From positions 1 to 64,000 of IMG/VR virus record IMGVR_UViG_3300004369_000003: a stretch of DNA of 64,000 bases, one strand, 5' to 3'. A program made the position numbers and the translations under genes. Each line of letters begins with the position of its first letter. Positions within the stretch are counted from its first letter, which is position 1. Below are positions 3,950-12,037 of this stretch, piece by piece. Below the pieces are notes generated by a model. It was not told the origin of the DNA, ran no database searches, and saw only the letters and a program-made list of their open reading frames with translations. Source of the stretch: a virus.

Positions 3950-6013
3950 GTGATTACTTTGGCTATCCCCTTTTCTTTCACCCTGTCCGAAGACTTTGTT
4001 AACGGTTATCGTGACAAGCAAGCACCGTTTGGTTACCGAGATGCGGGCGGTAACTCGGTGGGTGAAATTACATTCCTTCGTACTTACTCACGACTGAAGG
4101 AAGATGGCACCAAGGAGTCTTGGGCTGATGTTTGCGAACGTGTCATCAATGGCATGTACTCACTTCAGAAGGACCACTGCAAAGACAATCGTCTTCCGTG
4201 GATTGACCAGAAGGCTCAAGCATCTGCCAAGGAAGCATTTGACCGTCTCTTCAATCTGAAGTGGACACCTCCTGGTCGTGGACTTTGGGTTATGGGAACC
4301 CCAATCGTTAACGAGCAACGCAACTCTGCTGCACTTCAAAACTGTGCGTTCATCTCTACTTACGACATGCACAAGAGCAATCCAGCAAAGCCATTTGGTT
4401 TTCTCATGGAAGCATCAATGCTTGGCGTTGGTGTTGGTTTTGATGACAAGGGTGCAGATAAAGATTTTGTTATTTACAAGCCAACGAAAGAGATTCAGGA
4501 GTATCACATTCCTGACACCCGCGAGGGTTGGGTTGACTCCACCGTTGCGCTTATCAATTCGTACCTCAAAGAAGGTCAGCCGACTTACGTTTTTGACTAC
4601 TCAGTCATTCGCCCACTTGGCGAACCAATCAAGACTTTCGGCGGTACAGCAGCAGGTCCAGAACCGCTCATCAAACTCCACGAGTACATCAAGAAACTTT
4701 TTGCATCTCGCGCAGGTAAAGGCAAGTTCCTCACTCGCACAGACATTGCTGATATTGGAAACCTCATCGGTGTTTGCGTTGTCTCGGGCAACGTGCGTCG
4801 AAGCGCAGAGCTTCTCATCGGTCGCCTAGATGACGACAACTTCCTCAACTTGAAGAACTCAGAGAAATTCCCAGAGCGCAACTCTTATGACCCAGATGCT
4901 CCAGGTTGGGGTTGGATGTCCAACAACTCTGTAGAGGTTTCTGTTGGTCAGGACCTTTCTCCAATCGTTGAAGGCATCTCTCGCAATGGTGAGCCAGGTG
5001 TTCTCTGGATGGATGTCTCTCGCAAGTACGGGCGTCTTACTGATGGAGTGAACAACAAGGACCACCGAGTCGCTGGTTACAACCCATGCGCTGAGCAGTC
5101 ACTTGAGAGTGGGGAAATGTGCACGCTTGTTGAGACCTACCTCAACCGCCACGACGACCTTGAGGACTACAAGCGCACCCTGAAGTTTGCATATCTCTAT
5201 GCCAAGACCGTCACCCTTCTCCCCACCCACTGGGAAGAGACCAACGCAATCATGCAGCGCAACCGACGCATCGGAACTTCAATGTCAGGTGTTGCAAACT
5301 TTGCAGACCGAAAGGGTCTTCCGACTCTTCGCACTTGGATGGACGAGGGCTATAACACTGTCAAGCGCTATGACAATGTGTACTCAGAGTGGCTAGGTAT
5401 CCGTGAGTCCATCAAGACCACAACCGTGAAGCCTTCTGGCACCGTGTCAATTCTTGCTGGTGAGTCCCCTGGTGTTCACTGGACCCCAGGTGGTAAGTAC
5501 TTCCTTCGCACTATTCGTTTTGCGAACACCGACCCCATGCTTCCGCTCTTCAAGATGGCGAACTACAAGGTTGAAAAGGCGAGCGAGTCTCCCGACACAA
5601 CCTCAGTTGTTTACTTCCCCATCAAGTCTGACGCAGAGCGTGCAGAGCGAGATGTCACTATCTTTGAAAAGATGGCGCTCGCAGCTCAGGCTCAGCGTTA
5701 CTGGTCAGACAACTCCGTTTCCGTCACTATCTCCTTCGACCCCGAAAAAGAGTCGGAGCACATCGGCACTGTCCTTCACATGTATGACGGTCAGATGAAA
5801 ACGGTTTCATTCCTTCCGTCAGGCAACATGACCTACCCACAGATGCCTTACACGCAAATCACGGAGAAGGAATACGAGAAGTACACGATGAAACTATTCC
5901 CCATTGACTTCTCTGGTGTGTACGCAGGAATGGCTGCGGATGCAATTGGCGAGGCTTACTGCACCACAGATGCTTGTGAGATAAAGTTTGTAAAGGACAA
6001 CCAAGCAAACTAG
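3950..6013 (+). CDS. nrdJ: Class II (B12-dependent) ribonucleoside-triphosphate reductase
   Basis: A 687-residue monomeric adenosylcobalamin-dependent reductase that turns ribonucleotides into deoxyribonucleotides for phage DNA synthesis. Key residues: C132 ('LQNCAFIST') and C391 ('GEMC') as the active-site redox pair, 'NPCAEQ' with thiyl radical C380 and E382 in the finger loop, 'KPSGTVSILAGESPGVHW' phosphate-binding loop, and a C-terminal C671-x4-C676 pair ('AYCTTDAC') that would relay electrons from thioredoxin-like donors. Length and order match the Lactobacillus-type enzyme. The GTG at 3950 abuts the ribosome site 'gaggaa'; a TTG at 3959 has better spacing and could be the true start. 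No cobalamin riboswitch fits in the short leader. It coexists with an orphan class I small subunit at 11016. Confidence 0.93.
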   Translation: MITLAIPFSFTLSEDFVNGYRDKQAPFGYRDAGGNSVGEITFLRTYSRLKEDGTKESWADVCERVINGMYSLQKDHCKDNRLPWIDQKAQASAKEAFDRLFNLKWTPPGRGLWVMGTPIVNEQRNSAALQNCAFISTYDMHKSNPAKPFGFLMEASMLGVGVGFDDKGADKDFVIYKPTKEIQEYHIPDTREGWVDSTVALINSYLKEGQPTYVFDYSVIRPLGEPIKTFGGTAAGPEPLIKLHEYIKKLFASRAGKGKFLTRTDIADIGNLIGVCVVSGNVRRSAELLIGRLDDDNFLNLKNSEKFPERNSYDPDAPGWGWMSNNSVEVSVGQDLSPIVEGISRNGEPGVLWMDVSRKYGRLTDGVNNKDHRVAGYNPCAEQSLESGEMCTLVETYLNRHDDLEDYKRTLKFAYLYAKTVTLLPTHWEETNAIMQRNRRIGTSMSGVANFADRKGLPTLRTWMDEGYNTVKRYDNVYSEWLGIRESIKTTTVKPSGTVSILAGESPGVHWTPGGKYFLRTIRFANTDPMLPLFKMANYKVEKASESPDTTSVVYFPIKSDAERAERDVTIFEKMALAAQAQRYWSDNSVSVTISFDPEKESEHIGTVLHMYDGQMKTVSFLPSGNMTYPQMPYTQITEKEYEKYTMKLFPIDFSGVYAGMAADAIGEAYCTTDACEIKFVKDNQAN

Positions 6014-6022
6014 GGAGTCGTA

Positions 6023-6481
6023 ATGACTTGGGACCTCAATCAGCACCATCTCCCAAAAGACGCTGGAGAGTATGCGGAAGGACTGTCCAAGATTATGGAC
6101 AGAATTCCAGAAGGTTGGGGGCGTTGGATTTCCCACGGTAAGGGTTGGTACAAACTTATCTGCGACACCAACGAGATGCTTTCGTTCATTGACCCTGACT
6201 ACGAGATTCACCAAGTCAAAGAGAAGTTCGGAACTCTTCGCTACTACTACGCAAGTAAGTTTCCTTGGGGCTCAACTCAGGAAAAGATAATGGAAGCAAT
6301 TGTTCGCCACGCAGAAGACCTTTCGGCTGTCACCTGCGAGGAATGCGGCAAGGCTAAATACGGAACTCTTGACAATATTGACAGCACGGTCAAACTCAGA
6401 GCCCACGGCTGGTATCGAACTCTCTGCGACACCCACGCTCTTGAGCAGGGCTATCCAATTGAAGAAACCGAGGAAGAATAG
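6023..6481 (+). CDS. Conserved phage protein with C-terminal zinc-ribbon-like part
   Basis: A 152-residue protein. The N-terminal half has a block 'GWGRWISHGKGWYKLI' and 'EIHQVKEKFGTLRYYY' that I recall from hypothetical proteins in many phages. The C-terminal part carries 'CEECGK' and, about 40 residues on, 'WYRTLCDTH', a likely Cys/His zinc site. Function unknown. Ribosome site 'gggag' precedes the ATG. It lies between the reductase and the M15 peptidase on the same strand. Confidence 0.7.
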   Translation: MTWDLNQHHLPKDAGEYAEGLSKIMDRIPEGWGRWISHGKGWYKLICDTNEMLSFIDPDYEIHQVKEKFGTLRYYYASKFPWGSTQEKIMEAIVRHAEDLSAVTCEECGKAKYGTLDNIDSTVKLRAHGWYRTLCDTHALEQGYPIEETEEE

Positions 6482-10893: not shown

Positions 10894-10938
10894 TTCCCCC
10901 CAAACCGCCCCGTTTTTCTGCATATTTAGGAGAATCTT

Positions 10939-11016
10939 ATGGACCCCGAAATTATTGATGGCTATGCCTGCCCCGTGGACCCCATGGAAGCACTGCAATG
11001 CGAGAGCTGCCAGTAA
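10939..11016 (+). CDS. 25-residue peptide resembling the C-terminal tail of class I reductase alpha
   Basis: A 25-codon gene with a strong ribosome site (ttaggaga). Its peptide ends 'GYACPVDPMEALQCESCQ'. This looks like the flexible redox tail of class I ribonucleotide reductase large subunits, which often end in a Cys followed by C-E-x-C-Q (recalled pattern, not searched). It sits where such a large subunit would end, just before the small-subunit gene, whose ATG overlaps its stop (TAATG). It is therefore either the translated remnant of a deleted large-subunit gene or a stand-alone tail peptide. No other large-subunit sequence remains around it. Confidence 0.6.
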   Translation: MDPEIIDGYACPVDPMEALQCESCQ

Positions 11017-11996
11017 TGGGAATTTTAGGTACAGGAATTCAAGAAGGTCTTCTCCTCAAGCCAGTGCGCTATCAGTGGGCCATGGACCTCTACGACCAGG
11101 CTGTTGCTAACACCTGGTTCCCCAACGAGGTTCAACTTGGTGAAGACATCGCTGACTTCAAGAAGATGACGGACGAAGAGCGTCACGCTATTGAGTTTTT
11201 GATGTCTTTCTTCAATCCTTCGGAACTCATTGTCAACAAGGCGCTCGCGTTCGGTGTCTACCCCTACGTCAACGCTCCCGAGGCGCACCTCTACCTCGCG
11301 AAGCAAATGTGGGAAGAAGCCAACCACTGCATGTCGTTTGAGTATGTTCTTGAGACATTCCCACTTGACCGCGAGAAGGCATACGCCCAACATGTTGAGT
11401 CACCGACTATTGCAGCCAAAGAAGCGTTTGAAACCAAGTACATCACTCGCATGACCGAGCACACTCTTGACATCAACACCGTTGAAGGCAAGCAGGATTT
11501 TGTTCGAAACTTGGTGGCATACAACATCATCATGGAGGGCATCTGGTTCTACTCGGGCTTCATGGTTGCTCTGAGTTTCCGTCAGCGCAACCTACTCAGG
11601 AACTACGCATCTCTCATTGATTGGGTTGTTCGTGACGAGAGTCTTCACCTCAAGTTCGGCATCAACCTCATCCTCACCGTTTTGGAGGAGAACCCCGAGA
11701 TTGTGACAGATGAGTTTGTCGCTGAGGTTAGGCAGATGATTCTTGACGCTGTTGAACTGGAGTGCGCTTACAACGAAGAGATGTTCCCTGGTGGCATCTT
11801 GGGTCTTAACCACAAGTACGTCAGTCAGTACACGAAGTACCTCGCAGACCGCCGCTTTGAGGAGTTGGGATTCCCTGCTCACTACAACGTTGGTAACCCT
11901 GCCAAGTGGATGGCGACCGCCAACGACACTCTGCAGTTGGTGAACTTCTTTGAGTCGCTCAACACTTCTTATGAAGTAAATGCAAAGGTGGCTTAA
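11016..11996 (+). CDS. nrdF: Class I ribonucleotide reductase small (beta) subunit, Tyr-less
   Basis: A 326-residue ferritin-like protein of the class I beta family. Dimetal ligands are visible: E70 (in place of the usual Asp), E101-x2-H104 ('WEEANH'), the 'MEGIWFYSGF' Glu and 'RDESLHL' (E-x2-H). The residue four after H104, which carries the radical Tyr in standard enzymes, is F108, as in Chlamydia-type class Ic enzymes that use a Mn/Fe centre. The C-terminus has the usual 'NFFES' segment before the alpha-binding tail. ATG at 11016 is chosen over 10998 because it overlaps the previous stop. No large subunit of class I is present in the window; the reductase at 3950 is class II and needs no beta. 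Confidence 0.88.
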   Translation: MGILGTGIQEGLLLKPVRYQWAMDLYDQAVANTWFPNEVQLGEDIADFKKMTDEERHAIEFLMSFFNPSELIVNKALAFGVYPYVNAPEAHLYLAKQMWEEANHCMSFEYVLETFPLDREKAYAQHVESPTIAAKEAFETKYITRMTEHTLDINTVEGKQDFVRNLVAYNIIMEGIWFYSGFMVALSFRQRNLLRNYASLIDWVVRDESLHLKFGINLILTVLEENPEIVTDEFVAEVRQMILDAVELECAYNEEMFPGGILGLNHKYVSQYTKYLADRRFEELGFPAHYNVGNPAKWMATANDTLQLVNFFESLNTSYEVNAKVA

Positions 11997-11998
11997 AG

Positions 11999-12037
11999 AT
12001 GACTTGCGGCGACAAGTGCGTCTGTGGTAAGAAATAA
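11999..12037 (+). CDS. 12-residue cysteine-rich mini-ORF after nrdF
   Basis: The frame MTCGDKCVCGKK starts 3 nt after the nrdF stop, preceded by 'aaaggtgg'. It has a C-x3-C-x-C pattern. Its position suggests a link with the reductase genes (for example metal or thiol chemistry), but such a short frame may also be chance. Confidence 0.3.
   Translation: MTCGDKCVCGKK

Follow-up and report, generated by a model that had tools for sequence, protein, structure and literature searches.

A separately encoded redox-tail peptide, probably acting in trans on class I ribonucleotide reductase, in Microbacteriaceae and their phages

A stand-alone gene for a 25-residue peptide was found directly upstream of nrdB in a window of 64,000 nucleotides of viral DNA (positions 1 to 64,000 of IMG/VR record IMGVR_UViG_3300004369_000003). 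The peptide is very probably the redox tail of a class I (probably class Ic) ribonucleotide reductase (RNR), encoded separately and acting in trans, with the phage peptide and NrdB topping up the NrdA of the host. As judged from sequence, the tail is split from the catalytic chain, co-occurs with a tail-less NrdA, is present in unlinked copies and is carried alone by phages. RNR makes all DNA precursors and, to our knowledge, its mobile C-terminal tail has been taken to belong to the catalytic chain. With somewhat less assurance, we consider it probable that the redox tail in this branch of class I RNRs is an independent, diffusible third component, encoded by an NrdR-regulated gene of Microbacteriaceae and carried alone by phages to drive the host enzyme.

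The peptide gene and its neighbors in the window

The features of the window are compiled in Table 1. The original prediction described a stand-alone peptide with its own ribosome site and TAATG coupling to nrdB, and both details were confirmed, the stop codon TAA of the peptide overlapping the ATG of nrdB. The predicted likeness to a class I large-subunit redox tail also held. The peptide has a Cys pair (CxxC) at its extreme C-terminus (CESCQ-stop), and its end (DGYACPVDPMEALQCESCQ) is homologous to that of the fused NrdA of Actinomycetales (DGVACPVDPMEALQCESCQ), with CxxCQ invariant. Among the 450 ATG-initiated open reading frames of at least 20 aa in the window, only this one has a CxxCx ending, and the peptide profile (HMM) matched it within the virus record with an E-value of 1.1e-14. 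No family in Pfam, NCBIfam or PHROGs matched the peptide above the cut-off, and its 25 aa compare with about 75 aa or more for the thioredoxin-fold domain of glutaredoxin, NrdH and thioredoxin.

Table 1. Features of the window discussed in the text
Feature	Position	Strand	Evidence
Monomeric class II RNR (NrdJ) with its own C-x4-C tail	3950..6013	+	PF17975, PF21995, phrog_367; sole PF02867 match in the record
Ribosome-binding site AGGAG, six bases 5' of the peptide ATG	10928..10932	+	Direct reading; present in L005 and L006 too
Stand-alone redox-tail peptide gene, 25 aa, MDPEIIDGYACPVDPMEALQCESCQ	10939..11016	+	Conserved ORF, HMM, invariant CxxCQ end, purifying selection
nrdB, class I RNR small subunit	11016..11996	+	PF00268, E=7e-75 over the whole chain
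Second Cys-rich micropeptide, MTCGDKCVCGKK, directly 3' of nrdB	11999..12037	+	Similar ORF close to nrdB in about nine further phage contigs

The 25-codon frame is conserved in relatives. Compared with its counterpart in phage contig L005, it has five synonymous codon changes and one amino-acid change (dN 0.036, dS 0.62; just 25 codons were compared). The distinct DNA versions of the gene, 122 from phages and 79 from hosts, vary in their codons for P, D, P, C, C and Q, yet these residues are invariant. Members of the family have 20-37 residues and the C-terminal consensus P-x-D-P-(M)-x-x-L-Q-C-[DE]-S-C-Q. On this evidence, the ORF is a real, conserved gene, and the free-standing peptide, as seen in relatives, is the normal state of that gene.

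These relatives bear on the earlier statement that the rest of the large subunit is gone. The 102,539-base record, which is possibly a fragment, indeed contains no class I large subunit, the class II enzyme being its sole large-subunit match, and an nrdA gene of the phage may be missing from a record that is perhaps incomplete. The loss implied by that statement was not upheld, as the gene is free-standing in relatives too. If nrdA had been deleted and a translated remnant retained solely to couple its translation to that of nrdB, the TAATG overlap, which recurs in L005-L008, would be accounted for. This explanation has almost no credibility, given the conservation at the amino-acid level, copies away from nrdB (L011, L013, L015, L019, L025, L030, and L032), lone copies in phages that have no nrdB and the NrdR-linked second copies of hosts. 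Hundreds of bacterial and phage loci preserve the frame as a gene in its own right.

Action of the tail in trans on another reductase, with the class II enzyme of the window as the example, had also been proposed. Action in trans is the most likely reading, but the suggested partner had to be abandoned. The two genes share one record and little else commends the pairing: NrdJ has a C-x4-C tail of its own (YCTTDACEIK by direct reading), the peptide is homologous to class I tails, and it occurs without NrdJ in hosts and phages, namely in phages without any RNR and in ten hosts whose only PF02867 match is a tail-less NrdA. We regard service to the class II reductase as exceedingly unlikely.

The NrdB of the window is 86% identical to that of Microbacteriaceae bacterium MWH-Ta3. 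Its motif HCMSF has Phe at what we take, by eye against class Ia/Ic sequences, to be the usual position of the radical Tyr, which suggests that the protein is class Ic-like. The host of the window phage is likely a member of the Microbacteriaceae, as inferred solely from the NrdB similarity and a WhiB gene.

A second Cys-rich micropeptide (MSCGDKCTCGKK and MCNGNCTCGKGK in other contigs) is encoded mostly directly 3' of phage nrdB. Its carriers are the window, L005, L006, L008, L009, L010, L014, L017, L024, L025, and L032, and it was not found at the host loci examined. It is possibly an accessory part of the system and possibly metal- or redox-related.

Tail-less NrdA and the peptide in Microbacteriaceae

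The class I large subunit NrdA was detected in 56 of 120 Microbacteriaceae genomes, and all 56 encode the peptide as a separate ORF. The remaining 64 genomes have a class Ib NrdE instead of this NrdA; none of them gave a strong peptide match and one (G243) gave a weak match (E 0.005). Counting strong matches, the co-occurrence of NrdA and peptide has a Fisher p of about 1e-35, a value for related genomes that are not independent. Every one of the 79 host NrdA C-termini read is without Cys after KTTYYLH, and [KR]GF[GA] motifs are located near the end of every NrdA examined, within the short linker where the chain stops. In 77 of these 79 cases, a short ORF with the CxxCQ motif at its end lies 62-180 bases 3' of nrdA, and nrdB follows the peptide in all 52 cases in which it was located in the stretch, the usual order being nrdA-peptide-nrdB. 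The tail-less NrdA was the sole PF02867 match in the ten host genomes checked, which makes the peptide likely to be required for growth there. Tropheryma whipplei is listed in a review with class Ic as its only RNR (PMC4009431).

Most of the NrdA-bearing Microbacteriaceae genomes (53 of 56) have two or more peptide copies, and each unlinked copy is equipped with a start and a Shine-Dalgarno sequence (SD) of its own. Paired NrdR-box-like sites, 32-33 bases apart, precede all ten unlinked peptide genes tested, and paired sites also precede all 19 nrdA genes tested; each pair scored above at least 99.5% of shuffles. No NrdR-like boxes were found 5' of the peptide copy in the window. In genomes G200, G236, and G293, each with one PF02867 match, nrdA directly abuts nrdB and the peptide is encoded solely elsewhere in the genome.

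Two further features of the host copies were observed. A conserved inverted repeat, AATGACA-N4-TGTCATT, lies between the two NrdR-box-like sites 5' of the unlinked peptide (L135, L136, L137, L142, and L144) and is perhaps a site for another regulator. Genome G039 has a third, divergent copy (L143, at about 4516, ending in DGYLVPVDPSDAVQCESCQ), which may sit in an integrated element.

The peptide is a separate short ORF in the window, in hosts and in phages, and in the trans-only genomes it is not even adjacent to nrdA. Covalent joining of the peptide to NrdA by programmed frameshift, stop bypass or enzymatic ligation would give an ordinary mature tail, and it would suit the usual position of the tail ORF 3' of nrdA with overlapping stop and start, the prevalence of one frame offset relative to nrdA (+2 in 66 of 77) and the fused tails of sister lineages. 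We consider such joining improbable. Offsets of 0 (six cases) and 1 (five cases) occur too, G200, G236, and G293 have no tail ORF beside nrdA, each unlinked copy comes with a start, an SD and NrdR-like sites, and the copies in phages are remote from any nrdA. The varying offsets, the trans-only genomes and the unlinked and phage copies cannot be explained by recoding, and post-translational ligation remains as the form that joining could take; programmed frameshifting in particular was rejected on the offsets and the trans-only genomes.

Phage copies with and without RNR genes

Scanning viral contigs for NrdB yielded 32 loci, or 33 records including the window. A strong peptide match was obtained in 23 of the 33 and a weak one in two more. 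The peptide is directly 5' of nrdB in the window and L005-L009, about 80 bases 5' of it in L014 and L017, and kilobases away or 3' of nrdB in the other NrdB phage loci. The search of relatives for nrdA and its tail found a class I NrdA in only three of the 33 records; it ends in GAPKKGFGFAVAKN or similar, without cysteine, and in these three related contigs a gene of its own upstream encodes the peptide. Compared with the chromosomal NrdA of the 80 best bacterial loci, which belong almost exclusively to Microbacteriaceae, the tail-less phage protein shows 73-79% identity. An ordinary fused tail ending in CESCQ is present in phage NrdA proteins that are more distant (L043-L046).

Other ORFs were observed near phage nrd genes. 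In L028 and L029, a divergent, longer ORF near 6264 (a 60-codon frame ending in FVCDSCQ) lies 3' of a 67%-identical nrdB and is perhaps a remote variant of the tail peptide. Free-standing LAGLIDADG-type intein-like proteins adjoin phage nrd genes in L025 (1592-2539), L032 (1574-2539), and L015 (about 4046-4996). Two of the three end in Asn-stop, and they are related to the intein inside the NrdA of L039. A role as a splicing device for the protein encoded between peptide and nrdA in L025 and L032 was rejected; the first catalytic Cys is missing from these proteins, none was seen in the window or in hosts, and the proposed system has no need of one.

Lone copies were sampled with a DNA pattern for DPM[DE]xLQC[DE]SCQ-stop, which matched at least 120 viral stretches. 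Among the matches listed, a lone peptide ORF was present in at least 112 viral contigs, with at least 84 distinct peptide sequences of median length 25 aa, and in none of the 112 did the motif lie inside a long frame. Tape-measure, head and primase genes are present in the sampled contigs. NrdB and any large subunit were absent from all 21 lone-peptide records tested (27-61 kb), including Pan2 and the complete phage phiPsal1. Phage phiPsal1, whose host is Pontimonas (Microbacteriaceae), encodes MSDPFDAIDRVDGIDVPIDPMDLLQCTSCQ, which is unannotated. Pan2 (ON968453.1, 21246-21326; L050, L132) is recorded as a Pseudanabaena phage, yet its peptide is typical of Microbacteriaceae and their phages, and its host record may deserve a check.

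The many phages that carry the peptide and no RNR subunit, together with the variable N-termini, could also be read as antagonism, the free tail acting as a mimic that competes for host NrdA or thioredoxin and so blocks host DNA synthesis or alters RNR regulation. This reading has a small probability in our estimate: the invariant CxxCQ and the PxDP core are the same in phage and host peptides, and the coupling of the window gene to nrdB favors supply over inhibition.

Proposed function of the free tail

Supply of a working tail is the reading that we prefer, and the likely partner is a tail-less NrdA, supplied by the host or, in the three contigs with an nrdA of their own, by the phage. In other class I enzymes, the dithiol of the covalent tail is swapped for the active-site disulfide and is re-reduced by a thioredoxin-like protein (PMC9669993, PMC5704485). 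In Microbacteriaceae, the NrdA chain ends after a short linker and the Cys pair (CxxCQ) would be made as a free peptide of 20-37 residues. By analogy with the covalent tail, this peptide would enter the active site of NrdA, its dithiol would reduce the disulfide formed in each turnover, and a thioredoxin-like partner would re-reduce it. Docking may occur near the GFG motifs. When a natural in-frame read-through chain (NrdA-stop-tail, L066) was modeled with AlphaFold, the core was fair, the last 95 residues were disordered and no docking site was visible. In the window phage, the genes for peptide and NrdB are predicted to be translationally coupled. Because no nrdA is present in the record, the phage most likely supplies both products and borrows the NrdA of the host, which would provide more dNTP during infection.

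A lineage with a free tail offers a natural system for studying tail docking and Cys-pair exchange, with tail and enzyme separately titratable. The findings suggest that an enzyme fragment ranks among the smallest metabolic genes of phages and has escaped notice, being below the length that gene callers accept. The split tail may also be a lineage-specific target.

Origin and comparison with known systems

In other Actinomycetales, the same motif is fused to NrdA after a linker of about 200 residues, and a long flexible linker that made the covalent link dispensable is a likely story for the origin of the split. The NrdA tree places the fused actinobacterial clade beside or inside the split ones and, with a very distant outgroup, does not fix the direction of change. 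No further stand-alone peptide was found outside Microbacteriaceae in a thinly sampled, phylum-wide set of 396 genomes. The open-access literature, searched with the peptide string included and with subscription papers outside the search, gave no account of a split class I tail.

The fused class I tail of Actinomycetales resembles the peptide in its near-identical sequence, its enzyme clade and its CxxCQ at the extreme C-terminus, whereas Microbacteriaceae and their phages encode the tail as a polypeptide in its own right, by a gene that is often duplicated and unlinked. The nearest precedent for a split tail is the class II NrdJa/NrdJb of Pseudomonas aeruginosa (PMC4520616), in which the redox Cys module likewise has a chain of its own and serves the catalytic one. 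NrdJb, however, is a folded zinc-finger domain of 229 residues that belongs to a B12 enzyme encoded in one operon (PMC4520616); the peptide (25 aa with one CxxC in the window, 20-37 residues in the family) has a class I NrdA as its likely partner and is partly encoded in trans and by phages. The class I large subunit of Aeromonas phage Aeh1 (NrdA-a/NrdA-b; PMC3653736) is likewise in two pieces and still works, but it was split by insertion of a homing endonuclease in one phage, whereas here the redox tail alone is separate and the arrangement extends across a bacterial family. The NrdB of Facklamia ignava, with its fused glutaredoxin (PMC6187632), is another class I RNR with a rearranged electron-delivery module; there, the reductant was fused on, the opposite direction to a tail that is split off.
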